A stretch of DNA of 64,000 nucleotides from Patescibacteria group bacterium. Lineage in GTDB: Bacteria > Patescibacteriota > Patescibacteriia > 2-12-FULL-60-25. Each line of letters begins with the position of its first letter. The first letter of the stretch is position 1. The notes beneath the pieces are model-generated. The model ran no database searches, was not told the origin of the DNA, and saw nothing but the letters and a program-made list of their open reading frames with translations. The stretch covers positions 1,121,251 through 1,185,250 of the forward strand of contig JAVHLR010000001.1 of NCBI GenBank assembly GCA_031082005.1, read 5' to 3'. The position numbers were made by a program, and so were the translations under genes. This document shows positions 2,905 through 20,858 of this stretch, in pieces.

Positions 2905-3669
2905 CTATTTGCTTAATTGTGCCTCCATCTTTGGAGGCGTAGGTTTCTTGAGGAAAATCGCCTGCTGGATTACGGTCAACAAGCTCATCACTAGCCAGTA
3001 CAGGGTCAAACCGCCAGGCAAAGAGATGCCGATGATCACGGTCACTACCGGCATGATGTACATCATCTGTTTGTTCATCATGGCAGCCATGGATTCGTCC
3101 TTCGCACCCTCGGCCCCCTGCACCTCGACAGGCGGAGGCGTCGCCGGACTTGGCTTCTGGAATATCTGCTTGGATTGCCAGAACTGGATCAGACCAGACA
3201 GCACAGCCAAGACATAATTCGGACGACTCAAATCGACAAACCCCAGAAACATGTTATTGATCGTCCCAGGATTTTCGACGAAAGGATAAAGCAGATTCAG
3301 ACTATGTGAAGAAAGCCCGCTGCGCAACGCCTCGAACAGGCCGATGAAAATCGGCATCTGTATAAGCAACGGCAGACATGAAGACGCCGGGTTGACCTTC
3401 TCCCTTTTATAAAGATCCATCAGCTCCTTTGCCTGGGCTTCTTTATCGTCTTTCAGACGGCTCCGTATCTCGTCTATCTTGGGTTGCAGTTCCTGCAAGG
3501 CACGCTGCTGCTTGATCTGCTGCACCGTCAACGGATATAGGATCAACTTCACGATGATGGTCAGCGCGATGATGGCGAAACCGATGTCATTGCCCGGTAA
3601 GACATTGTACAGCCAGATCAACAGGTTCAGGATGGGCTGGAAAATCACTGTATTGAAGAGTGCGATCAT
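2905..3669 (-). CDS. yidC: YidC/Oxa1 membrane protein insertase
   Basis: 254 residues. YidC inserts and folds membrane proteins alone or with SecYEG. The sequence shows the conserved core: a first helix (FQPILNLLIWLYNVL), then IIALTIIVKLILYPLT whose Lys/Arg region forms the hydrophilic groove, the cytoplasmic helical hairpin LQELQPKIDEIRSRLKDDKE, and PLLIQMPIFIGLFEALR. The large periplasmic domain of proteobacterial YidC is absent, as in short Gram-positive and CPR forms. There is no lipobox. It follows nusA at a 76-base distance; its usual partners (rpmH, rnpA, jag) are not adjacent. No Shine-Dalgarno sequence precedes the start. Confidence 0.95.
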   Translation of the reverse strand: MIALFNTVIFQPILNLLIWLYNVLPGNDIGFAIIALTIIVKLILYPLTVQQIKQQRALQELQPKIDEIRSRLKDDKEAQAKELMDLYKREKVNPASSCLPLLIQMPIFIGLFEALRSGLSSHSLNLLYPFVENPGTINNMFLGFVDLSRPNYVLAVLSGLIQFWQSKQIFQKPSPATPPPVEVQGAEGAKDESMAAMMNKQMMYIMPVVTVIIGISLPGGLTLYWLVMSLLTVIQQAIFLKKPTPPKMEAQLSK

Positions 3670-5780: not shown

Positions 5781-6518
5781 ATGAACGTAAAAGTCCCCCC
5801 TTCTCACAAGCCGCGTGAACCGTTCCCGGTCGTCATGCGATCCACCGCCATCCGAAGGTTCTTCAACTCCGCGTTGGATGCGATTCGCCAAAGGCACGTC
5901 CTGCTTCTGGGAGTCAGGCAGGCCGACCGTCTGGAGCTCAAATCCTTCTTTCGCGCTTTGGCGCAAGAGACTTCCAAGCAAGCCCCCCAACGCATCTGCA
6001 ACGATGCCAATTTCGATCCAATCGTCTTGGACGAGGAAGATGATACGTGCTTCCTCTTTCTTCATGGAGAGGAAATGCGCGGCAGTCTGCAACACAACAT
6101 CTGCCTCAACTATCGCCACCTGCCGCTCGTCGCCGTAGCTATCGAGCCGCACGCCGAGGGACAAATGCCGTCGCGCTGGGACAGGCGCTTCATCCAAACC
6201 CTAAGTCCGATGCTCAACTGGCCAGCCTGGTCAGAACGAGACGAAGACAAGGCAGAAATCTGCGAGATCGTACGCTCACGCATCTTGCTTCCCAGCGGTC
6301 TTCCGACTCCGATCTTCGATCCGGACGCACTCCGCTTCCTGCTCGAAAAGGATTTCGACGGTCCTGTGGCCGTCCAAGATACGATTCGCCGCGCCATGCA
6401 GGCATATCGCCGCGACAGTTGCACCGGACCCCTCACGCTTGATGCTTTTCTGCCGAAGCGTTCGAGCCGACCCGGCAACCAACCCTCCATCTCTCCCTCA
6501 AGCCCGCCCATGGGCTGA
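5781..6518 (+). CDS. Degenerate NtrC-like AAA+ protein, ATPase motifs lost
   Basis: 245 residues, no database family obvious at first sight. The segment order matches the sigma-54-activator AAA+ domain. RFFNSALDAIRQRHVLLLG sits where the Walker A strand belongs. DTCFLFLHGEEMRGSLQ sits where GTLFLDEIG-D occurs. LSPMLNWPAWSERDEDKAEI parallels the L-PPLRER-EDI sensor segment. IFDPDALRFLLEKDFDGPVAVQDTI parallels FS-EAL-LL---WPGNVREL. The Walker A GxxxxGK, Walker B DE and GAFTGA loop are all missing, and no DNA-binding HTH follows. It is therefore probably a non-hydrolysing scaffold or regulator. It has its own promoter, a good RBS (CGGAGTAAG) and a strong terminator. The family link is my reading of the pattern, not a search result. 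Confidence 0.6.
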   Translation: MNVKVPPSHKPREPFPVVMRSTAIRRFFNSALDAIRQRHVLLLGVRQADRLELKSFFRALAQETSKQAPQRICNDANFDPIVLDEEDDTCFLFLHGEEMRGSLQHNICLNYRHLPLVAVAIEPHAEGQMPSRWDRRFIQTLSPMLNWPAWSERDEDKAEICEIVRSRILLPSGLPTPIFDPDALRFLLEKDFDGPVAVQDTIRRAMQAYRRDSCTGPLTLDAFLPKRSSRPGNQPSISPSSPPMG

Positions 6519-6638: not shown

Positions 6639-9600
6639 CTACGGCGCCACACCCAACTGCAACGCCCCCTTAAATACGACCCACGGTCTGTAGAACGAAC
6701 CACCGTTTTCAGGATCGCACATATTATTCTTATTTTGTGATTGGGCGACGTTCAAAGACAACGTCGGATCGGAATTCCAATATACTCCGCTCGCGTCATA
6801 ACATCCGCCATTGGGCAGCAGAATGTTATTTCTGGCGACGCCTCCGCCATCTTTGAAACCAGGGCCGAGCTTACCGCCGCCCAAATCTTGGACACGGCAT
6901 TCACCCGTACACCAACCCCAGTTATCTTTCACCAGGACGCGAGGCGTATAGCGGCAGGCGGCATTCGTATCGTCGAAGCATCCACCAGGTTCGGCAGTAT
7001 TCGGGACGCACGTATCACCCTTTGCGCATGACGTGGACGAGGAACATTCTCGCGTATTATCACGCGAACAATGTCCGGTGACGTTAGCGCACTTGTAATC
7101 CGCATCTATCTGTTGCGACTTGTCACAGGTATAGACATGCGTAAACTCGAAGTAGTTCTGTTCACAGGCCGCATCGCTGGAGCCGAACCCTACGCGGACA
7201 TTACACGTATCGTCGCCCACGGACCCCGCCCGACAATCCTGATCCGTATGGCACGATACTTCCGGCTTGCGGTTACAGCTTCCCGTGTCAGTACACCGAC
7301 CTGCGGCAGGCGGACAATCGTTATCCGAACTGCAAGTCAAACCGGGTACGAATTCGCACTCTTTACTCACGCCGCAGAACGGTTTCTTGTTCTTCATCCT
7401 GACGTCGTCCAGTTTCTGCTGCGTCCCGTCACCCCAATCGATCGTCATTTCCTTCAAGCCCATCTGGTTATCCGCCGCCCAAGCATAGAATCGCATGGTC
7501 ACGATGGCTTGTCCGCCCACGTAAGCGACCTTGCCCTCCGTCAGGCCTTCCAAGCTGAACGCGTCCACCGTGGAAATCGGACATTGGCCAGCTGATGCGC
7601 ATTGTCGGTTGGTATCAGGTGCAGCAAGGCGCGGCGGCTTCGGCGCATAATATGAGATGTAGGTGAAATCAGTGGCGTAGTCAGTTTTCGAAAAGCCATT
7701 CTGTTCTGCTATATACGTCGGCAAATGCAGACCGCCCGTCACGTCAGTCGGCGGCAGTCGTTTTTTCGCATCGAACGAGGCGATATAGCTTCCGCTGGTC
7801 GCGCTATCGCGTTGCGATACTCCGGTCAGACACTCCGGTCGCTTCGGATCAAGACCGCACAAGTCAACGCGCGGTCGATATCCAGCCTTATGTGTACAGG
7901 AGTTATTATCCCTATCCAAATCAGTCGTATTAGCATCACCGTCCGGATCTTCACAGTCGAATGATGTGCCGTATACCGTGCCTTTACTCGGTACGTTCCC
8001 GACCATAGTCACAGGCTGGCAATAGAATTGAGAATTCCACTGCTGATCATCGGTCGCCCAAGATGGCTTACAATCTTTTTCGTCCTGGCAGAAACTTCCT
8101 TCCTTCGCGCCAAGTTCGCAGATACCCGGACTCGAACTGGAACCACGCCAACGGGTCAAACCAGTACCTGTAATTTTGAAATACGGCACGTCAGGCGGAT
8201 AGGCCTGCGCAGTACAATCAGCTTCGCCTCCTGGAAAATTTCCCAGCGCGAATTCCTTACACCTTGTAGCATCAACCGCCAGCTTCTCGCAATGTCCAGG
8301 GATGAAGATATCCGCAGCCTCTGGGGTACCGCCCTGTTTATTCACGACTTTCAGATTATTCACAGTCTCTAGCGTGAAAGCACCCGGGAACCTGAACAAA
8401 TCCAAACCAGTACCCTGTGATCCATGGAGTAGATATCTCAAATTATTGAATTCCTTCCCTGCCAAATCCTTACTCGGCGATTGGCCGTCAGTTCCCTTCC
8501 ACAGCTCATAATCCTTACTCGGCGATTGGCCGTCAGTTCCCTTCCACAGCTCATATCCGCCGCTTGTCCAGTTATCCATCCAATACAGGTTACCCAAGTT
8601 ACCTAAGCCGGCCCAATCTGCAGTATTGTTCAATACTGCGCCGTTGAGCGGATAATTCGTATTGACCGTTCCTGGCGAACTTACTGTATTGCTATAGAAT
8701 ATCCCCACAAAAGCCGTACCCAAATCATCACTCGGTATCACCGCATGCCTCGTCGGATATGGCATCGGCTTATCAGGCATACCCGCTGGTTTGGACATAT
8801 CGTTGTACCACCAATTGGCCCAAGTGAATGAACAACCTGAACCCTCGTTACAGCGCACATGCTCATAACCTGGCGTAGAGCAGAAACCAGTCGAATAATT
8901 ACAACTGCCGAATACCTCCACCGGACAATCCGTCGATGGCTTACCTCCGCTCGGCTTACGGCACCACGACTGCTTGCCGTCCGGGAAATGTACGGCGTCA
9001 TCCGCGCACCAGAAAGCCCCGGCTTTTGCAGCGCTTGTCCTCACCAGATTTTTACAGTCTCCGTTCTGACCATCAGCCACGCAGTCAGCTTTGATAGCGG
9101 CGATCTCTGTCTGACAAGCAGTCAGATCCGCTCCAGATATGCCGGAGCATGGGTCTGCTTTAAGGGAATAGAGGCTTGAATTCGTCATCTGCTCCCAATA
9201 ATCGCTCATGCCACAAGACGTAAACTGCGGAGCCAGCTTACCGTTCACGTTCTTTACCGGTCCTCCGTGACACACATCATACTGACCGATATCGATTCCT
9301 CCGCCTGGACCGCAAGCCAAACCGGCATTCACTCCAGAAAGCGAATTACAGAAAGCCAAACTCGGATCTTTCAGATCAATCAAATCAGGATTACAGTCTC
9401 CCTGATATCCACAATACTTTGCCGAAGAAGTAGCGCCCTCGTCCCATACGGCATAACCGGAGCAAGTCTTATCCAACAAAGGATTACATGCGGTAGCCCC
9501 GCCGGAATCCGTGCCCGTGTAATACTTTGACAAATCCGGACAGCGTTCGCCCTGTCGAGGACCCGACATGCAAGTCCAGCTCGACTTGGTCACCGGCTGT

Positions 9601-12600
9601 TCATTCCATCGATATATCTTATAGATTTTCGCGAAGATATTGCTCAACCAACCCCAGTTACCTGTCGGGGCTTCACCTAAACGGAAATATTCCGCACCCG
9701 ATAACAAGAAAGTTGGCTTATTAGCTCCGGACTTGTACTGCGTCTTATCCAGCGCACCAGACATGATAAGGGGTTCCTCACCGATTTTCTTGGTGTGTTT
9801 CGCCGCACCGAACGGATTATTCGTCGTACCGACATTGAATCCTAGACTTGGTATGGCGTACGACCCCTGATCCCACACGCGATCCGTGTATGCCGCCGTA
9901 TCCCCCGCACTCTCCGAAGCTACGCTACCTACTTCCTTACAGATGTCTGCATGCCCGACATCCATATACATGTAGATATACCGCTCGTTCGTCAATCCAG
10001 GGAAACTCGCCGTGACCCACCAACCAACGAACTTGAACGGGCCAGCCAACTGGCTTCCTGAAGGATCAGATTGGTCTTCCGCGACGGCGTTATCTTCCGG
10101 CACCGTGTCTTCGAACATGGCACGTATGGCGAAATACGGCTTGCCGCCTTCGCTCTCGGCGTAGAACACATCCTCTCCCTTCAGCTCGCGCGGTCCGCCA
10201 ATCGATTCATTGAATCTGCGGAACTTGGATTGTCCATCAGCTCGGAATCCCATTTCCCAATACTTGTAATAGCAATAGTTGTCGCCTTCAGGGCCCGAAT
10301 GTGCTTTATCCTTACACGGTAATCGGATTAAACGCGTACCATCCTCGTTCGTGAGATAACCCGATCCTTGGGGAGTCAGTCTCTTGATCTCCGCCATTTC
10401 GCGTTTGACTATTTCGTTACCGGCCTTGTCCCATCCTGCCGTTCCGGCCTCTGTCGGGAATTGGTCGACCCACCAGCCGGATTGGCCGCAAGCCCACGTT
10501 CCACCCGCACCAGTCTTATACATCGGCTTGAAATCGAAATACGTGAAGTTAGTTTCAAGCGACGCCTTCTCTATCTCTTCGGCTGTCGGCGCGGTCTTGT
10601 TTATCAACCATTCGGTCCAAGCCTTATCATTGAACTCGACGAAATATTCAGCATAGTTCCTGTTCTTACCGCGACCCGTGGTTATCCAACGTCCGGCAAG
10701 AGTATCTTCAGCATATGCTTGCGCGCCAAAAGCATTACGCCCCTGCCCACAAGCCGCTCCGCTATCCGTACCGCGGACAGACAGACCGTCTATCGTCGAA
10801 CCCCAACCGCAGTTGTTCTCATACCAATTCTTATAATCGCCCGATCCGCCAATCCAACCATTCCAGGTCATGTTATAGGGCATCGGTACGGCCCAATCGG
10901 AAATCGCTCCGGGATCCTGGACAAAACACTCGTTATACCAGAAATAGCTCATCTTGCCCGGTGCCTTAGCGATCAAATAACCAGGCTTATCCAATGAGAC
11001 AGCCGGAGCCACAGGTGCGGATATCTTGATACCTCCACCAGCTGCTCCCGGGGAACCAGGAGAAAAATCCCACTCCGTCAATACATTCGGCATCTGCGCC
11101 TTCAACACCCTTGGCTCCTTGGCGCTGGACAAGCAATAATATTCCCCGGAATTCATCGGCGGCAGATAACCGGCCGTGGGCTGATAGTGATACACGTCTT
11201 GTTTGCCCTGCAATACCGGAGTCGGACTCCAGACCAAGCATGGATGAAGGTCCTGCGTATTTCCCAGCGTCCTCGAATAATCATATTGCAGACAATTTCC
11301 GAAGATACCACGTATCAACGAGCTTGATTGCAACTCGCTGCAGGCACCTCCCGATCCGCAATCGCGACCATCAAAATCGGCATTCCCGGCGGTCGTACTG
11401 GCACTTGAAGCTTGATTCTGCAAAGCCGCACCCGGAGTACAAGACTGCCCATTGCGCGCTCCCCCGATACACACGCCCGATGGCGATGTGCCGCTATACG
11501 GCGCGTAATATTTATACATTCCGCCGTAAGACAGACGACGATAACTGCAATCGCAATCTTCGCCATACTCGCACAAAGACACTCCATCGAAACCCGGCTG
11601 ATATTTGATCGGTTGCGGCGGGTCCTTCACGTAATCCCATTCGATCACGAACTTGTTCGGATACGGGGCAGCTGAATCCGGATATGCACGGCAAGTAGAA
11701 CCGGGGAAAGCTTGAGCCAACGTGGCGTTGTCTTTCACCTTTTCATCCTGCGTGAAGGCCACGGAAGCATTCTGTACGTTCCTCTCATTGATGCTGGCGA
11801 TGATCAGCTGGGAATAGGCTTTATCGATCGCTGTATAGCAGTAATCCGGCGTGCCCGCTGCTTTTTCGATATAATAACCGATTGCGCCAGTCTGTTTGAT
11901 TTTGCACAACTTCAAATAGTTGAATTTGAGATCCGAATACGTCTCGGCCTGGCTCCACGGTACTGCTGCGACTGCACGATATTCGTTAGTCAAACCAGGC
12001 TGCAGATCCCCCAACCTAGTTGACATCAACTCGTATGCCATCCTACGCGTCTGGATATCGGGTATCTGATAATGATTGGGCAGCGTATAACCCGAATAAT
12101 CCCAGTCCGTGAACGTTACTTCCCTATCGGCGTATGTATCATGGTCAAGAAAGCTACCCTGCCACAAAACAGCCTGTGTCGTCGTCGATTTACGATCGAT
12201 GTAATGATTACAGAATTGGCTTTCTGTCGTACCCGATAACTGATCGCAGAGCGACAAAGCCGTACATAAATCCACGTACTTACCTTGCGCCGGATCAAAT
12301 ACGGTCTCTTGCGTTGAGCACCCGAGCCAAGCCTGACAATCGCGATCCAACTTGACCTTCATCACGATATTCGAGTCGTTCAACGAGCACCGCCCCGTCG
12401 CGACAAAACCATAAGAGTGGTCGTCAGACGTATCGTTCGAACAATCGGCATCCGTCGAACATGAAGCGTTCTGCGTCTGGCTAAGCCAAGAAGATACGTA
12501 TGGGTCCGTCACGCAATCATAACCGCCGGGTGTGCCTCCAGGATTCCCAGCGCAATTGACGACTTTGATGTCAACGCATGACCCGGCGTTTTTGCAGAAC

Positions 12601-15600
12601 TCGCTATCCGGATCGCTGACGCAATTGACCGGGTTTGTCGCCACATCGCCTTCCGCGTGTGACTTGGCATAAGATGCCTTAGTGCTGAAATTCAGACGAC
12701 TGTCATTCATGTCACGGAACAACACGCATCCCGAAAGAGGATCTATCTTGCCGTTACAGGTCGATTTATCCAATAATTGATTATTGATGAAATAGTACGG
12801 TTTGCCTTGCAGATGAGACTGGTCGGAATGATCGTTAGTGTCACGGAATTCAGTACATTCTGATTGGTCGGCAGGACAAGCCGATGTCGTACCGCGGTAG
12901 TTCGGCGAGCCTGAAAACTCTCCGAGGAAAGTATGTCCTCCACCGAGCTTTTCGGGATAGCATGGTTGCGGCGGCGAAGAATCCTTCACGAACCAGCCTG
13001 AATATTCCCCCTTCGGATATGTCGGGTTGCTTGATGCTTCGAGCTCCACCTTGTCGTGCCATTCGCAGATATGTTCCAAGGGAGCACGGAAGTAAGACGT
13101 AACCGGGCCGCTCACGAACTTATCGCATAACAGCTCGCTCGGACGGCACAGCATCTGCGGTTCGTTGCCGCTATCTACATATTTAGTGATGTCGTCCTTC
13201 AGATACACGGTCTCTATCGTCGATGTCGGTATTCCCAAGTTATCGAATTTCTGTTTGCCGAAAGCGCGACATGACATCTGACTTTGGTCGCAACGGAACG
13301 CCGGATCATCGACGACATAGATGAATCTATCAGCCGACTTGTTCACCGTCACCGTACCTGCATACAGACTGTCCCAAGGCTTCGCGTCCTGCGGCACTGG
13401 CAGCCCTTCCAGGAAGTACTGCTGACCGTATGGATCGTCGCTATTTTGGGTATCCACGAAAGCCGTACAACCGATCAGATCATAACGGCACAATCGCGAG
13501 AACTGCCTGACTGTCACATAGCCGCCGTTCCTATCCTTATATTCACGGCAACCCAACATCGCCTGTGCCTGCGGTACGCCTTCAGGCGTCATGTCGCATT
13601 CCGTAGGTATGACCCATGAACCCTTGATGACATATGATACGTCCTGCAGCCTTTGGATACTGATTTCATCCAAGTAAGAGACGTTGGGCATACCAACCCA
13701 GCTCAATGTCACCTTACCCGCCTGCGTCGTCTTGAATGGTCCGATCTCAAATCGTTTCCAATCGCTGGATGCCTTGAACGCTCCCACGGTAGTCGGACCT
13801 AAATTGACGTTTACCGTCTTAGCCGTGGCGACCGTCGACTTATACCAGAAACTGACCGTGTACAAAGTCCCGGTAGCCGCATCGAAATCGACGTTGATCG
13901 TTGTCGCCTGGCTGGTGTTGCTGTTCTGGATCTGTAAAGAATAATCCCCCACCAACAAAGCTTCAGTCGAGACTTTCAACGTAACCGTCGATTGCGCGGT
14001 GTACACCGGAACATTCCCCGCCGCATCCTTGAATGCCTCGTAGAAGACATTCGCCGTATTGCGGCCACGTGATCCCAGATAAGCGCGACAACCGGCATTC
14101 GCCATAGCACACTCATTGCTCTCGCTGGCGAGAATGTGATAGACACAGTCATTGGTCGTCTGGCGGTAATCCCCGCCGGTCTTTATGCAATCGTCGGCGT
14201 TCTGGTTATTCTTGCGATAGTCCACACAAGACGCGCTGGAGACGATAGTCTGCGAAAAATACCGATAGTAAGCTTGGCCGTTCTCATCGTAAATCTGACG
14301 GCAATCCAAATCAGCGCCGTCTTTCCAGTTCTGTTCGTCGCAACCGCTTGGATCCTTAAGTACCCCATCAGGGCCGGCTTTACGCAGGATCTGCGGCCCT
14401 CCTGCCGTCTCTTTGATCAAGCTCCAGGTACGCAGCTGGTAGCCCGTCGCTTCAGAGCCCTCCCATGTGAAATACGTAGTGGATTTATCATTCGGTTTTT
14501 GGCAGGCGCGGGCGTATGTCAGATATATCGTCTCTTCACCGCCACCAGCCGCTGCCTCCAAGTTAGTGAAGGCCTCGCAACCGACCTGGTCGGCGCTACA
14601 CTGTTCGGCATTCTTCGGCACGAAATTTGCCGTCGTGTCATCGTTCGGATCGGTCAAAGGATCAGTCGCGGGATTCGCCGCACCGGTCTTCACCAAATCG
14701 AAAGCCGAGGGCATCTTCAAGTATTCGGCATAACCGACACAGCTATTAGGACAATAATCACCCGTCGACAGTATAGCCGGAATTTCAGTCGGATCAGCGC
14801 CCGATGCATCAGTATAGCCTTGGCACCCGGCGTCCAACTGTGAGCACATCCGCGCAAAATCGCTGCATTCTGTCCGGTCGCTCTTATCGTCGCCCGTGCA
14901 TTTGAATTCATCCGGCGGCAATTTCAGATATTGCGTCTTAAGATCGCCAGCCAGCATCTCGACGTATTCAGTCGATTTATCCCCTTCCTCAAGTTGTACG
15001 TCCTCGATAGCTGCGTTCACTCCGCCGACGAAAATCCTTCCGGCGGTCGCATCCGCATTCGACACGAACTCACATGTGAACCTTTGCCATTCTTCGGTCA
15101 ACTGACTGGTTCCCGCGCTGACCGTGTTGTTCGAATTGATGAATGACGGCAGGCTCACGGCCAGATTCGCGCTATTGGTGATACATGCTCCGCTCCTGAA
15201 ATACGTCTGGCCGACCACCGTACTCACGACCGTCGATTGTTGCAGCGACGGCGAAATGGTCTTCGACAAGACCAAGCTCACCGAAGCCTTATGGGTTCCC
15301 GAGGTGTTATTCGCCCGTGCATAGAAAGACAAGGCGTAATTCCTTAACGGCGCGACCAAAACCGCCTGATAAGGCCCAGCCTGATAATCTGGAGACGTCT
15401 TGATCTCTATACTGCGTGAACCGGAACGACTCGAATCTCCGGAATCAGCGACGAATACCGTCGGCACATAGGGAGATTTATCCTGAAATATCTTCCAGCC
15501 GTCAAGCTTGCCCGGAGCCGAAGCATCGTCGTATTCGAACGAACTGTTTTTCACCAAATTCAATGAAGGCTTACCTTGATTGACCTTAAGCACCTTAGTG

Positions 15601-17696
15601 CAACCGTCCCCCGACGCATCACACTTTTCGACAGTGGAATCGAAATAAACCCTTGATGTTTCCAGGAATATATTCTTGACGACCCCGTTGACCTTAGTGG
15701 TGAAGCCATGATCCACCCATTTACCGGTTGTTGTCGTACTTACATCATGTTTTGTCATGTAGTACATACAACCGATATTGTCCTGGTTACATGAGCCGTA
15801 ATCGATGGTATTGCGGATTAGCGAAAGGGCGTCGCCGCCATGCGGACCGCTATCGCGGGAAGTATAAGTACGGCAACTGACGTATTTTTCGTCACACTGG
15901 TCGCCACCAAAGCGCCAAACCGTCTTTTCCGCCATGCAGTATCCGTAAGCCCCGGTACAGTTTCCCTTATCATCGCGTTGCAGACATGAGACCAAATCAG
16001 TGCATTCCTGTAGACGTGCGTTCGTACTTGGAGCAATCAAGGACTCGCCAAAGCCGTTCAGTTGGCACTTAAAAGGAGGTGCTGTCAAAACCCATGTAGG
16101 ACTGATGAGATGACACCAAGGATGGGTCGCGTCAGCCAAACCCTCATCATTACAATCGCTGAAGCCTCTGACTACAGCCTCCAGAGTCACATATTTACCG
16201 TTGACTTTCTTGTTATACGGCGAATTTGCAGCCAACTCCCAGCCTATCGGGATAATGCGTGCAAAACGAAGTTTCGCCAGGTTTGAAGCACAATAAGCGC
16301 GCTGGAAACAACCAGGATCCTGGTTATCTTTGTTTTCCGTCACCGGAATGAGCTCCCAATCCTTGTGCAGTACTGCCTGGAGCCCCTCATCGTTCGCGAC
16401 AATCCCTGCCGCTTTCAACACCGTCAAGCCACCTGCCGTGCTCCCCTGCTGTAACGCATTAGCCAAACCTTCATCCAACGTACAGTTCCAATAACTACGT
16501 GAATCGGAACAGACCGACATCTCGGTCAAGAAATTTATTTCGTCCGAACCGCGCAGATTCGGCGTTATTATGTCAGTAAAAATCTTCTTCGGCCCGCTGC
16601 CCGTTCGTGGCTCGGCGCTCGTCTGTGCATACGGATTCGTCAAATCGACCTGATAGACGTTCGACTCCGCCTCGCTCGTATCAGTGAACCACCAGTTGAT
16701 GAGTTTATTCAAAGCACCTTCCGCCAAGGTCGTCAGGAACGTCATACCAGCGATCACCGGCAATTGTTTGACGCCGGCCCACATTGCGCTCATGGCCAAG
16801 GTGTTCATCTCGGAGAACGTGACCTCGTTCATCGATTTCACCGCGTTCGATTCCGCCAAAGTCTGTTCGATGATCAACGCCGGTGTCTTGATGCTGGTGC
16901 TCAAAGGACCGACGGTCGCCGTCTGCATGCCGCGGTTCTCTTGACGTTGCAGTTCGGCCGACTTCTTGGCCTCCTCACGCCCGATGACCGCCATGCTGTT
17001 GATGCGCAGCTGCAGCTCCATCGGATTGTTCGCCCCACGATCTATGCCGCTCAACAGATTACTCACGACTTCACGCGGTTGGAGCTGTTTGTAGACCGCA
17101 GAAAAATTCTGGTAGATTTTCTGATAAGTACAATCTGGCTCCGGCGGTTCGGGCAATCTCGCAAAAGGAATGCGCAATTTGAAATCCAGATTGATCGGTT
17201 GGCACAACCCCAAACCCCACTCCTTATCCACGCCATCGATGAAGCGATTAGTGAAATCCTGCGCCACATCACCCAAAAAGTCCTTGAATGATTGCCTGAA
17301 GAATGACGGCTTGCCGTGCATGCCTTCGAGCACCCACTCCGCCATGCTCTGCGACATGCGCATCACATACTTATTCAAAGTGTTCAACATGGCTCGCACC
17401 ACGATGAACTGCAACATGCCCTTACCTTCAGCGATACGCATCTTGAAGATATTGGCGTATTGACAGTCGTTTGAAGAGGCCATCCCTACTCCATAGGGTG
17501 CATTCAGCATCATCTGACAAGCCTGGATGTTCCAATGCGCCGCATATGCCGCCGGGAGATAAGCCGGGTCTTCTTCTACCGTGATGGCCTGCGCCGGTCG
17601 CGGCGACCAACCCACCGACAACACCAGCATCAACGCTCCGGCTACGCCCATCCCTGCCTTGGCGATATGACGGTAAAAATCCCTCGTGGCTTTCAT
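6639..17696 (-). CDS. Giant secreted Cys-rich surface protein (3685 aa)
   Basis: One uninterrupted frame of 11 kb, about one sixth of the window. Residues 1-37 are a signal peptide ending PRPAQA. Residues ~60-340 are helical with a hydrophobic stretch near 320-340 (VIAGMTFLTTLAEGALNKLI). After that comes a long Cys-rich, Tyr/Asp-rich part in which C-x6-C-x2-[FY] recurs at least eight times. Two carbohydrate-binding-like beta-sandwich regions lie near residues 711-860 (NLVKNSSFEYD) and 1210-1360 (NVFYEAFKDAAGN). A PKD-like strand pattern (MTIDWGDGTQ) lies near 3410, followed by a Cys-dense cluster. No LPXTG or C-terminal membrane anchor is visible. An adhesin or cell-surface fibre is plausible but not proven. 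It lies three bases behind the TSP3 membrane protein gene, so the two are co-transcribed. No Shine-Dalgarno sequence is visible. Confidence 0.85.
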   Translation of the reverse strand: MKATRDFYRHIAKAGMGVAGALMLVLSVGWSPRPAQAITVEEDPAYLPAAYAAHWNIQACQMMLNAPYGVGMASSNDCQYANIFKMRIAEGKGMLQFIVVRAMLNTLNKYVMRMSQSMAEWVLEGMHGKPSFFRQSFKDFLGDVAQDFTNRFIDGVDKEWGLGLCQPINLDFKLRIPFARLPEPPEPDCTYQKIYQNFSAVYKQLQPREVVSNLLSGIDRGANNPMELQLRINSMAVIGREEAKKSAELQRQENRGMQTATVGPLSTSIKTPALIIEQTLAESNAVKSMNEVTFSEMNTLAMSAMWAGVKQLPVIAGMTFLTTLAEGALNKLINWWFTDTSEAESNVYQVDLTNPYAQTSAEPRTGSGPKKIFTDIITPNLRGSDEINFLTEMSVCSDSRSYWNCTLDEGLANALQQGSTAGGLTVLKAAGIVANDEGLQAVLHKDWELIPVTENKDNQDPGCFQRAYCASNLAKLRFARIIPIGWELAANSPYNKKVNGKYVTLEAVVRGFSDCNDEGLADATHPWCHLISPTWVLTAPPFKCQLNGFGESLIAPSTNARLQECTDLVSCLQRDDKGNCTGAYGYCMAEKTVWRFGGDQCDEKYVSCRTYTSRDSGPHGGDALSLIRNTIDYGSCNQDNIGCMYYMTKHDVSTTTTGKWVDHGFTTKVNGVVKNIFLETSRVYFDSTVEKCDASGDGCTKVLKVNQGKPSLNLVKNSSFEYDDASAPGKLDGWKIFQDKSPYVPTVFVADSGDSSRSGSRSIEIKTSPDYQAGPYQAVLVAPLRNYALSFYARANNTSGTHKASVSLVLSKTISPSLQQSTVVSTVVGQTYFRSGACITNSANLAVSLPSFINSNNTVSAGTSQLTEEWQRFTCEFVSNADATAGRIFVGGVNAAIEDVQLEEGDKSTEYVEMLAGDLKTQYLKLPPDEFKCTGDDKSDRTECSDFARMCSQLDAGCQGYTDASGADPTEIPAILSTGDYCPNSCVGYAEYLKMPSAFDLVKTGAANPATDPLTDPNDDTTANFVPKNAEQCSADQVGCEAFTNLEAAAGGGEETIYLTYARACQKPNDKSTTYFTWEGSEATGYQLRTWSLIKETAGGPQILRKAGPDGVLKDPSGCDEQNWKDGADLDCRQIYDENGQAYYRYFSQTIVSSASCVDYRKNNQNADDCIKTGGDYRQTTNDCVYHILASESNECAMANAGCRAYLGSRGRNTANVFYEAFKDAAGNVPVYTAQSTVTLKVSTEALLVGDYSLQIQNSNTSQATTINVDFDAATGTLYTVSFWYKSTVATAKTVNVNLGPTTVGAFKASSDWKRFEIGPFKTTQAGKVTLSWVGMPNVSYLDEISIQRLQDVSYVIKGSWVIPTECDMTPEGVPQAQAMLGCREYKDRNGGYVTVRQFSRLCRYDLIGCTAFVDTQNSDDPYGQQYFLEGLPVPQDAKPWDSLYAGTVTVNKSADRFIYVVDDPAFRCDQSQMSCRAFGKQKFDNLGIPTSTIETVYLKDDITKYVDSGNEPQMLCRPSELLCDKFVSGPVTSYFRAPLEHICEWHDKVELEASSNPTYPKGEYSGWFVKDSSPPQPCYPEKLGGGHTFLGEFSGSPNYRGTTSACPADQSECTEFRDTNDHSDQSHLQGKPYYFINNQLLDKSTCNGKIDPLSGCVLFRDMNDSRLNFSTKASYAKSHAEGDVATNPVNCVSDPDSEFCKNAGSCVDIKVVNCAGNPGGTPGGYDCVTDPYVSSWLSQTQNASCSTDADCSNDTSDDHSYGFVATGRCSLNDSNIVMKVKLDRDCQAWLGCSTQETVFDPAQGKYVDLCTALSLCDQLSGTTESQFCNHYIDRKSTTTQAVLWQGSFLDHDTYADREVTFTDWDYSGYTLPNHYQIPDIQTRRMAYELMSTRLGDLQPGLTNEYRAVAAVPWSQAETYSDLKFNYLKLCKIKQTGAIGYYIEKAAGTPDYCYTAIDKAYSQLIIASINERNVQNASVAFTQDEKVKDNATLAQAFPGSTCRAYPDSAAPYPNKFVIEWDYVKDPPQPIKYQPGFDGVSLCEYGEDCDCSYRRLSYGGMYKYYAPYSGTSPSGVCIGGARNGQSCTPGAALQNQASSASTTAGNADFDGRDCGSGGACSELQSSSLIRGIFGNCLQYDYSRTLGNTQDLHPCLVWSPTPVLQGKQDVYHYQPTAGYLPPMNSGEYYCLSSAKEPRVLKAQMPNVLTEWDFSPGSPGAAGGGIKISAPVAPAVSLDKPGYLIAKAPGKMSYFWYNECFVQDPGAISDWAVPMPYNMTWNGWIGGSGDYKNWYENNCGWGSTIDGLSVRGTDSGAACGQGRNAFGAQAYAEDTLAGRWITTGRGKNRNYAEYFVEFNDKAWTEWLINKTAPTAEEIEKASLETNFTYFDFKPMYKTGAGGTWACGQSGWWVDQFPTEAGTAGWDKAGNEIVKREMAEIKRLTPQGSGYLTNEDGTRLIRLPCKDKAHSGPEGDNYCYYKYWEMGFRADGQSKFRRFNESIGGPRELKGEDVFYAESEGGKPYFAIRAMFEDTVPEDNAVAEDQSDPSGSQLAGPFKFVGWWVTASFPGLTNERYIYMYMDVGHADICKEVGSVASESAGDTAAYTDRVWDQGSYAIPSLGFNVGTTNNPFGAAKHTKKIGEEPLIMSGALDKTQYKSGANKPTFLLSGAEYFRLGEAPTGNWGWLSNIFAKIYKIYRWNEQPVTKSSWTCMSGPRQGERCPDLSKYYTGTDSGGATACNPLLDKTCSGYAVWDEGATSSAKYCGYQGDCNPDLIDLKDPSLAFCNSLSGVNAGLACGPGGGIDIGQYDVCHGGPVKNVNGKLAPQFTSCGMSDYWEQMTNSSLYSLKADPCSGISGADLTACQTEIAAIKADCVADGQNGDCKNLVRTSAAKAGAFWCADDAVHFPDGKQSWCRKPSGGKPSTDCPVEVFGSCNYSTGFCSTPGYEHVRCNEGSGCSFTWANWWYNDMSKPAGMPDKPMPYPTRHAVIPSDDLGTAFVGIFYSNTVSSPGTVNTNYPLNGAVLNNTADWAGLGNLGNLYWMDNWTSGGYELWKGTDGQSPSKDYELWKGTDGQSPSKDLAGKEFNNLRYLLHGSQGTGLDLFRFPGAFTLETVNNLKVVNKQGGTPEAADIFIPGHCEKLAVDATRCKEFALGNFPGGEADCTAQAYPPDVPYFKITGTGLTRWRGSSSSPGICELGAKEGSFCQDEKDCKPSWATDDQQWNSQFYCQPVTMVGNVPSKGTVYGTSFDCEDPDGDANTTDLDRDNNSCTHKAGYRPRVDLCGLDPKRPECLTGVSQRDSATSGSYIASFDAKKRLPPTDVTGGLHLPTYIAEQNGFSKTDYATDFTYISYYAPKPPRLAAPDTNRQCASAGQCPISTVDAFSLEGLTEGKVAYVGGQAIVTMRFYAWAADNQMGLKEMTIDWGDGTQQKLDDVRMKNKKPFCGVSKECEFVPGLTCSSDNDCPPAAGRCTDTGSCNRKPEVSCHTDQDCRAGSVGDDTCNVRVGFGSSDAACEQNYFEFTHVYTCDKSQQIDADYKCANVTGHCSRDNTRECSSSTSCAKGDTCVPNTAEPGGCFDDTNAACRYTPRVLVKDNWGWCTGECRVQDLGGGKLGPGFKDGGGVARNNILLPNGGCYDASGVYWNSDPTLSLNVAQSQNKNNMCDPENGGSFYRPWVVFKGALQLGVAP
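8466..8555. repeat. 45-bp perfect tandem duplication inside the giant gene
   Basis: The 45-base unit beginning ATCCTTACTCGGCGATTGGC is present twice in a row (8466-8510 and 8511-8555) with no difference. It encodes the doubled peptide YELWKGTDGQSPSKD and keeps the frame. Identity at all positions points to a recent event or an assembly artefact. Confidence 0.95.
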
Positions 17697-17699
17697 AAT

Positions 17700-18398
17700 T
17701 TATTGGTTGTTTGTTTGTGTCGCCGCATTCGTAGCGTCTGCTTGCTGCTGTTTTAATTCAGCGATAGCGGCATCGTAATATTGCAGCAATTGCTCATCCG
17801 TCAGGGAGTCCAATTCTTCATCCGTAATCTGTCCCTTGAGGATCTGGCGGATCATCACCGGATTGCGCGGTAAAGTCGAAGCTTCATCCGTGCTGTCGTC
17901 AGTCATGGTTGAACCGCTGGTCGCGAGCTGTGCCAAAAATTCAAGATCCTGGTTGTCGTTAGTCGCAGACTTGTCTGGCGACATGACGCTGAACGTATCG
18001 CTGGCATAATTCAACGCCGAAAAATCCAGATTCCCCGCTTGTCCGCAGACCAGGTTCTTCCCGCTGATGACACGCACGTTGTCCGGTAACCCGTCGCCGC
18101 AAGAATCGCGCGAATTGGGGTTCGTGTTATACACGTTCTCTTCATCCCAGTCGGATAGCCCGTCGCCATCAGTATCCAAGCGCTTCTGTTTGGCGATTTC
18201 TTCAGCCTGAGTCAGGCCGATGATTTTCTTGGCCTCATAAATCTCTTGCGTGTCGATCAAAAAAGGCGCCCTGATGGAATAACTGATGCGATACAACGAA
18301 AGACCGAAAGTCAACGCTCCGGCAAATGAAAAAATCACCAACAAGATCTGCTGCCCTTTGGCTAAGGATTGCCAACGCAGAACGATAGAATTCCACAT
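17700..18398 (-). CDS. Single-pass membrane protein with TSP3-like calcium repeat
   Basis: 232 residues. A membrane segment lies at about 17-40 (ILLVIFSFAGALTFGLSLY). The region after it carries DTDGDGLSDWDEE, NTNPNSRDSCGDGLPD, the Asp-rich Ca-binding pattern of thrombospondin type 3 repeats. The tail (LKGQITDEELDSLTDEQLLQYY and a Gln/Asn-rich end) is soluble and probably helical. It sits directly upstream of the giant secreted protein with only three bases between, so it may help export, anchor or assemble that protein. The partnership is inferred from position only. Confidence 0.75.
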   Translation of the reverse strand: MWNSIVLRWQSLAKGQQILLVIFSFAGALTFGLSLYRISYSIRAPFLIDTQEIYEAKKIIGLTQAEEIAKQKRLDTDGDGLSDWDEENVYNTNPNSRDSCGDGLPDNVRVISGKNLVCGQAGNLDFSALNYASDTFSVMSPDKSATNDNQDLEFLAQLATSGSTMTDDSTDEASTLPRNPVMIRQILKGQITDEELDSLTDEQLLQYYDAAIAELKQQQADATNAATQTNNQ

Positions 18399-19016: not shown

Positions 19017-20858
19017 CTATCCTCCTGTCGTACTTGTCGCCGTCTCTGTCCCTAACTTCTCGACACCGATCAGACAAACCGCTTGCCAAGGTCGATAGTG
19101 GCTACGGAACACCTGTGTGAGCACCTGACCATCAGGCATCTTCACCGTATATGTAAAATCCGCATCCGCGCCCCAATGCGCAATCTCTGAACACTTCTTC
19201 TTACCCGGCGCCAAATCAAGCGTTTCGACCAACTTCGTCGGGGGTGGCGCGGTGATATTGTAGATATGCGGGTCAGTCCGCTGGGCAATCCGACCATCCC
19301 GCGTACCCCAAAACTCGAAAATTAAGATGTCGCCTTTGACATACGCATTGATCAGAATCTTATTGCCCGTATCATTCTTGAATTTCAAATCAGGGTGCGG
19401 TCCATAGATCGTCGCGTCGGTTCCAGCCGGTTCATAATAGCGCACGCGATATGAGTGGTTCTGTCGTTCCACTATCGGCAAGCCGGAATCCATAGCTCCA
19501 CGGAAAGCCGTCGTACCGATCTGGCACAATCCACCACCGTACTCTGGCAGCGTCTTATCGCCCTTGATAACCATCTCTGGATACCAGCCATTCGGCCCGT
19601 CGATTTCCCCCATCGTATCGACCAACGAAAATACCTGATCAGGTTCGACAATCGTACCGTTAAGCAACTGGACGCCCCGCGCAATGTTCTTGCGACGATT
19701 GACCGGCGAACCGGAAAAATCCGAAGTACCGACACCGATAAGTTCCCTTATCCCGATTTTCTCCGGATCCTCTCCGACTAAAGTCGCCGGTATCTTTTCT
19801 GTCGTCAAAGCGAAGGTCGATGTCGGAGGCCAATCAGCCAGAACTTGGCGCAATAACTCATCGGTCTTTATCCTGATGCCTTCCGTCCCCGCAACGAAAG
19901 ACTCTATCTTTCCGTCCTTCACGACCAAGCTACCGTTCTTGCCCTCCACCTCAACCGCTTTCGCGATGGCACGGACACCCTCGCTGAATTTCAAAGCATC
20001 CAAAGTCAGACCAAACTCCCCCGACGTACTGGTCACCGTGACCCATGAGGCTAAAGTCGAGGTAGGCACTTCGAATCTAGATTTTCCGTAAGTGAAGACC
20101 AAGTTCGGACGATACAGCATCTCGGTCGCTTTGGGCTCCAAGCCTTCCAGGTCAGAATATTTTATCGTGGGCTCGATACTGCGCTCGCTCAACTCGATAG
20201 GCTTGAAGGACAGCTCGGCAGCTTGGGCATTCAACTCTTTTATGGCTGCATCAGAGACCAGGACGCTTCCGGTTTTTTCCGCTTCGATCTTGGTCACGAC
20301 TTTTCCATCCTCAAAACTTACGGCCAGCATCGCATCCTGCACCGGATCCAGGTCCTTGGCCACGGCAGCATCCAAAGCCAAAGCAATTCCCGCCTCATCG
20401 ATATTCACTTGAGCCGTAAAATTCTTAGGTACCACCCGGACACGCACCTGCTCGCTGATATCCTGCCGCCAACCGCTATCACGGCCATACATGAACGCAT
20501 CTTCGACAGCTTGTTCCGTTCCGAATCTGATTAGATCTCGCGCAGCATCAGGGTCAGTCGCGACCGTCATCGCATCTAACGATAGATCCCGACCGCGGAA
20601 TCTGAACCGCAGACCGCCACGCAATGCGCCATCGATGGAATCCTGCACGGCCTGTCGCGCCTCGCTTTTCGTCAGACCATCGACACGTACGCCGAAAACC
20701 CGTACGCCGGGGAACAGCCTATCCTCATACAGACGCCCATAAGCCACCAGCGACCCGACCACCATCAAAACAGCCAACGCCGTTACGGCGACGGTCACAT
20801 TAGCCCAAGTCAACAAAAGTTTAAGCGACTGGATTTTCAATTTATTGTTTTCGGTCAT
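19017..20858 (-). CDS. VanW family protein with peptidoglycan-binding-like repeats
   Basis: 613 residues. One N-terminal membrane anchor (about 12-36, LLLTWANVTVAVTALAVLMVVGSLVAYG) is followed by PGVRVFGVRVDGLTKSEARQAV, the start of a YoaR/PG_binding_4-like domain, which is followed by a second related domain. The VanW domain occupies about 390-530 with NLLNGTIVEPDQVFSLV-type sequence, YGGGLCQIGTTAFRGAMDSGL and HSYRVRYYEPAGTDATIYGP. VanW proteins are extracytoplasmic and common in Gram-positive and CPR genomes; their reaction is not known. The next gene downstream on this strand is Hsp20, upstream is a small conserved protein 10 bases away. Confidence 0.88.
   Translation of the reverse strand: MTENNKLKIQSLKLLLTWANVTVAVTALAVLMVVGSLVAYGRLYEDRLFPGVRVFGVRVDGLTKSEARQAVQDSIDGALRGGLRFRFRGRDLSLDAMTVATDPDAARDLIRFGTEQAVEDAFMYGRDSGWRQDISEQVRVRVVPKNFTAQVNIDEAGIALALDAAVAKDLDPVQDAMLAVSFEDGKVVTKIEAEKTGSVLVSDAAIKELNAQAAELSFKPIELSERSIEPTIKYSDLEGLEPKATEMLYRPNLVFTYGKSRFEVPTSTLASWVTVTSTSGEFGLTLDALKFSEGVRAIAKAVEVEGKNGSLVVKDGKIESFVAGTEGIRIKTDELLRQVLADWPPTSTFALTTEKIPATLVGEDPEKIGIRELIGVGTSDFSGSPVNRRKNIARGVQLLNGTIVEPDQVFSLVDTMGEIDGPNGWYPEMVIKGDKTLPEYGGGLCQIGTTAFRGAMDSGLPIVERQNHSYRVRYYEPAGTDATIYGPHPDLKFKNDTGNKILINAYVKGDILIFEFWGTRDGRIAQRTDPHIYNITAPPPTKLVETLDLAPGKKKCSEIAHWGADADFTYTVKMPDGQVLTQVFRSHYRPWQAVCLIGVEKLGTETATSTTGG

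Follow-up and report, generated by a model that had tools for sequence, protein, structure and literature searches.

The closest described systems are accessory proteins of conjugation. TraN, the F-type mating-pair stabilisation protein (PF06986), is a secreted, cysteine-rich T4SS accessory protein in which recipient specificity is set by a variable beta-sandwich at the tip of a conserved disulfide scaffold (PMC9246713). VirB5/TrbJ (PF07996), a T4SS pilus-tip protein, is also secreted and is encoded immediately before VirB6, and Gram-positive conjugation uses PrgB and LPxTG adhesins. For most Patescibacteria a life on other bacteria is assumed. In the only species tested, epibiotic growth requires the T4SS (PMC12857230, citing Wang et al. 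2023). PMC12102498 and PMC12857230 both describe the phylum as monoderm. A survey of Patescibacteria T4SS (PMC12102498) reports no PrgB homologue or PrgB-like adhesin and, in its accessible sections, does not mention the protein described here, of which no published description was found in the open-access literature.

The stretch of DNA analysed (the window) comprises 64,000 nucleotides of a Patescibacteria genome, and carries on its minus strand an ORF of 3,685 aa (6639-17696); the features given below lie on the same strand unless stated otherwise. The predicted protein (the giant) contains 142 cysteines (3.9% of residues) and begins with a signal-peptide-like segment (17586-17696, aa 1-37), bearing out the initial annotation of a giant secreted product. 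The hydropathy peak of this segment (aa 11-29) is the only one in the ORF, and a similar segment is found in most homologues. Hydropathy profiles reveal no second hydrophobic segment or C-terminal anchor in the giant, and none of the 41 sequences (the giant and its homologues) has a hydrophobic C-terminal segment, i.e., they are without an LPxTG-type anchor. An N-terminal domain (16497-17519, aa 60-400) was delimited by a profile (A1), the phylum search and operon contexts. Conserved columns near the other end (6912-7514, aa about 3395-3595) outline a PKD-like region (DWGDGT ... HxY ... VxDNWG), a label assigned by eye and accompanied by no Pfam match. The cysteine core between them matches no known family in Pfam, NCBIfam or the PDB, no adhesin domain was matched in the giant, and no catalytic or enzyme domain was matched in any tested stretch.

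A C-x6-C-x2-[FYW] motif recurs nine times in the protein, compared with a mean of 0.56 in shuffles of the residues of the whole protein; the maximum was five motifs, and none of 5,000 shuffles reached nine. When spacings of the form C-xk-C-xj-[FYW] were varied (k from 1 to 19, j from 1 to 4), k = 6 with j = 2 was the sole pattern with at least five copies. The eight copies quoted in the initial annotation are all present and in frame: CNQDNIGCMYY (15759-15791, aa 636), CSQLDAGCQGY (14814-14846, aa 951), CSADQVGCEAF (14568-14600, aa 1033), CAMANAGCRAY (14079-14111, aa 1196), CRYDLIGCTAF (13458-13490, aa 1403), CDQSQMSCRAF (13260-13292, aa 1469), CRPSELLCDKF (13116-13148, aa 1517) and CPADQSECTEF (12846-12878, aa 1607). 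The fixed spacing with a terminal aromatic that it had described is a true repeat, and its list was correct as far as it went, having overlooked CDEKYVSCRTY (15864-15896, aa 601), the first copy in the protein. A tenth site, CDASGDGCTKV (15591-15623, aa 692), lies third in order; it retains both cysteines and ends in Val, a position occupied by Phe or Leu in most homologues.

Forty homologous ORFs of about 2,360-4,620 aa, read from loci of up to 20 kb in a single class of Patescibacteria, contain 5-10 motifs each (0.25-0.80 expected). In the alignment of all 41 sequences the paired cysteines are invariant (41/41) at each of the ten sites, and six residues separate them in 395 of 410 cells (ten sites by 41 sequences), so that the spacing proves to be conserved in homologues. 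The pooled consensus is C-[SRP]-[AEP]-[EDSQ]-x-[VA]-G-C-x-[AE]-[YF], with the final aromatic replaced by Leu, Val or Met at some sites. Outside the window's family (f1) the cores are only about 27-33% identical to that of the window protein, and the persistence of the motif cysteines at this divergence indicates that they are under strong constraint.

The initial annotation had further suggested that the repeats represent a disulfide-knotted module, and a knotted unit of domain size was not borne out. Comparison of profiles for the ten sites showed similarity only from the first cysteine to the aromatic at +3 (11 residues), and column profiles of the flanks were at background out to -30/+39. 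Because similarity is confined to 11 residues, the repeated entity is a micro-loop and not a domain, and both a domain-sized repeat and a cystine knot or other known disulfide-rich domain were rejected on the same ground. The cysteine pairs at 1403/1410 and 1469/1476 are the only invariant cysteines in their stretches, and since several stretches have such a lone invariant pair, a local Cys-x6-Cys disulfide closing each micro-loop, rather than a knot, is the simplest reading of the sequences. The motif cysteines never vary among the 41 sequences and give no co-loss signal for pairing; perfect co-variation is seen between certain non-motif cysteines, for example 463 with 469 and 933 with 944. 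Two AlphaFold models made from two-sequence alignments were both poor (pLDDT 39 and 35), the latter being of too low confidence to bear on the pairing. The genome containing the window encodes VKOR, a disulfide-forming enzyme; the domain lies in a 406-aa open frame (G000:C3:839851-840228), whose product could plausibly oxidise the cysteines of the giant. VKOR was rejected as an obligatory companion gene, being enriched in the class (17 of 24 genomes, against 103 of 262 in other classes) yet not universal.

The variable, beta-rich spacers described in the initial annotation were substantiated, at least two of them being CBM-like beta-sandwiches. The first (14967-15560, aa 713-910) matches CBM_4_9 (Pfam PF02018) over aa 713-813 with 28.1 bits, above the cut-off of 25.9, and is absent in 13 of the 41 sequences. 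The second (13632-14069, aa 1210-1355) is present in all 41. Its profile (A2) matches a xylan-binding module (4xup, E 1.6e-10) and a CBM4 (1gui, 8.4e-6) in the PDB, and Foldseek returned CBM4, CBM16 and CBM22 matches to a low-confidence model of it. Mean identity is 33-38% in scaffold segments and 24-26% in the two CBM inserts, i.e., the cysteine scaffold is conserved and the CBM-like beta-sandwich heads are variable. The two spacers resemble CBM families 4/9, 16 and 22 by profile but differ from them in being inserts in a non-enzymatic scaffold.

Of 57 relatives subjected to six-frame protein searches, 53 have the giant. It is likewise present in every one of the 24 same-class genomes in an even draw of 286 from across the phylum, and in both sets there is one copy per genome. 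The cysteine core was found in none of the 262 genomes of other classes, where only CBM-like positions matched. The six-frame search of this draw gave a single match in other classes, confined to the N-terminal region. Scans of IMG/VR with profiles A2 and A5 found no relatives, and a search of genome contigs for more added one (L031). PMC12102498 reports that comF, recG and radA adjoin the T4SS loci of ABY1. The same three genes lie downstream of VirB4 in one locus carrying the giant (L097), and comF-like genes occur in two others (L099 and L103; Pfam), from which we infer that the class is ABY1.

Outside the window's family, the giant gene sits between rsmA and virB6 of a T4SS operon. Upstream of the giant lies rsmA in 22 of 25 of these loci. 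In 22 loci the sequence extends far enough downstream to look for virB6, and 17 of them have a VirB6-like gene as same-strand neighbour of the giant, in one case on its upstream side. This gene was assigned to VirB6 on the basis of weak TrbL matches (E 0.0027 and 0.0047, below the cut-off) together with its topology and position. Beyond virB6 are genes for PrgI/VirB3 (39.9 bits, cut-off 27), a TraC-N/TrsD-like protein and VirB4 (P-loop_TraG, E 2.6e-28), all by Pfam. This linkage with VirB3, VirB4 and VirB6 is conserved outside f1 and is not found within it, the giant being next to virB6 in none of 15 loci of the window's family. In the window genome, VirB6 is the first gene of the T4SS locus (VirB6-X-PrgI-TrsD-VirB4, C3 about 404-412 kb), and no protein with the N-terminal domain is encoded there. 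Profile A1 matches the giant and nothing else in that genome, at a distance of about 0.7 Mb from the locus. The gene has thus become detached from the T4SS locus in the window's family, along with its upstream partner gene. This partner (17700-18398, 232 aa), 3 bp from the giant, has an N-terminal TM segment and a bacterial TSP3 repeat (TSP3_bac, 24.0 bits against a cut-off of 25), and is conserved beside the giant in 38 of 41 loci.

Profile A1 also matched 11 genomes outside the class, in ORFs of about 350-890 aa. One of these, an apparent 624-aa ORF (in genome G074), contains a run of N, and the real protein is about 290 aa. Among the loci of other classes that were read out, eight encode a stand-alone, profile-matched N-terminal-domain protein before virB6 in the T4SS operon, with rsmA also on the contig in seven. 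Two more loci have a secreted protein at the same operon position, where the profile match was not reproduced by local search. The stand-alone form suggests that several classes of Patescibacteria have a T4SS subunit not recognised so far.

Like TraN, the giant is secreted and cysteine-rich, and its 142 cysteines with one insert absent in 13 of 41 sequences follow the TraN logic of a fixed scaffold bearing variable beta-sandwich heads (PMC9246713). It differs from TraN in being several times longer, in belonging to a monoderm phylum without an outer membrane, in its repeated 11-residue C-x6-C staple and CBM-type inserts, and in an N-terminal domain not known in TraN. The TraN profile was not matched by the full ORF (hmmscan, E<=1) or by the C-terminal parts of six members (E<=0.1). 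With VirB5 it shares secretion and a gene placed directly before virB6, and its N-terminal domain was modelled as all-helical (AlphaFold, low confidence, pLDDT 39); unlike VirB5 it has thousands of additional cysteine-rich residues. The N-terminal domains of 19 members gave no match to PF07996 at E<=10, and Foldseek with the low-confidence model gave no PDB match with E<0.001; neither by profile nor by Foldseek could this domain be assigned to VirB5. In its proposed role, that of an adhesin at the surface stabilising the contact between cells for a monoderm T4SS, the giant is comparable to PrgB and the LPxTG adhesins, from which it differs in lacking an adhesin-domain match and a C-terminal hydrophobic anchor. 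The giant has no sequence match to the VirB5, TraN or PrgB families, and the best reading of these comparisons is that it works like TraN and VirB5 in the proposed sense and is not a detectable member of either family.

On balance, the giant is probably a class-specific, T4SS-linked adhesin for contact with the host cell, functioning like TraN or VirB5. After export by way of the signal peptide, the helical N-terminal domain would dock beside VirB6, on the T4SS at the cell surface. The remaining 2,000-4,000 residues or so might form an outward-reaching arm, stapled by disulfides and bearing lectin-like (CBM-type) beta-sandwiches in the stretches between staples. By binding host-cell glycans, the arm could keep the epibiont attached to its host during T4SS activity, a part played in conjugation by TraN or VirB5. 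The disulfide pairing, surface location, T4SS binding and adhesive role in this scheme are what we infer from gene order and protein sequence. Counting against it are the presence of VKOR in only 17 of 24 genomes, the separation of the giant from virB6 in the window's family, and the ability of CBM-like folds to bind things other than host glycans. It seems about as likely as not that, throughout the class, a small secreted T4SS subunit encoded before virB6 and occurring in several Patescibacteria classes grew into a giant, cysteine-stapled host-contact arm with lectin-like heads, through the addition of 2,000-4,000 residues based on a new 11-residue disulfide micro-loop. A class-universal, T4SS-linked giant with lectin-like heads is a concrete candidate for recognising and holding the host. 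If the proposal is true, the giant would be part of an undescribed type of host-attachment organelle in Patescibacteria, and would supply the T4SS adhesin missing from surveys (PMC12102498).

The giant might instead be a general cell-surface or S-layer-like structural protein, with no role in secretion or attachment and a T4SS neighbourhood that is merely historical. A huge, cysteine-rich protein present throughout the class in single copy, separated from the T4SS locus in the window's family and without a detected anchor or enzyme domain, would suit such a role. This is judged unlikely because the N-terminal domain occurs in other classes as a stand-alone T4SS-operon protein upstream of virB6, 17 of the 22 loci that could be tested outside f1 have VirB6 next to the giant, and lectin-like inserts are present. 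A pattern arising by accident of composition, in a protein with 3.9% Cys, has practically no probability: it is ruled out by the shuffles, none of 5,000 reaching the observed count, and by cysteines that stay invariant at each of the ten sites across 41 sequences, although core identity to the window protein is only about 27-50% for most of them.

Encoded in a T4SS operon, very large and modular, the giant could also be seen as a toxin-like substrate or effector delivered into the host, particularly as CBM-like modules occur in some toxins and the Foldseek matches to the low-confidence model include toxin binding components. Its own Sec-type signal segment and the lack of any matched catalytic domain leave this a slim prospect, and a polymorphic toxin is disfavoured because the C-terminal end is conserved (D3591 in 41/41) and not variable as in such toxins. 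Slimmer still is a role in extracellular glycan processing or nutrient scavenging, with CBMs capturing polysaccharide for uptake; the two CBM-like modules would fit, but no catalytic domain was matched in any tested stretch and the linkage to T4SS argues against it.

A VanW-domain protein is encoded two genes upstream of the TSP3 gene (19017-20858, minus strand), and a related gene is found repeatedly close to the giant within the window's family. In other classes (L165, L167, L168, L170, L171 and L172) the position ahead of the stand-alone-domain protein, which in this class belongs to the TSP3 protein, is taken by a product of about 290-430 aa that has a hydrophobic segment at its N-terminus. 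A 796-aa ORF in G074 (L101, 11940-14327, plus strand), between the N-terminal-domain protein and virB6, has a signal segment, a TSP3-like stretch ('DTDGDSILDEADV') and a C-terminal TM segment.

Of 35 testable class loci, 14 (L057, L058, L063, L064, L066, L069, L071, L072, L083, L084, L088, L089, L092 and L093) have a solitary gene convergent with the giant and just downstream of it, whose product is lipoprotein-like (lipobox, 124-423 aa). This gene lies 64-1061 bp past the stop of the giant on the opposite strand, often between the giant and virB6, a position that recalls the entry-exclusion lipoproteins of conjugative plasmids. Only six lipobox ORFs were found elsewhere in all loci, and four of these are also downstream of the giant. 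The downstream lipoproteins are mutually unrelated except for those of L088 and L089, their genes are GC-richer than the giant in 13 of 14 cases, and some have PEGA or MopE-like domains; L060 has a same-strand TSP_3 lipoprotein. Reminiscent of Myxococcota lipoproteins, they are possibly host genes captured at a fixed slot. In the window, a convergent 245-aa ORF (5781-6518, plus strand) lies about 120 bp past the stop of the giant, with a GC content of 0.58 against 0.52 for the giant; it does not encode a lipoprotein, and could be another occupant of the downstream slot, or spurious.
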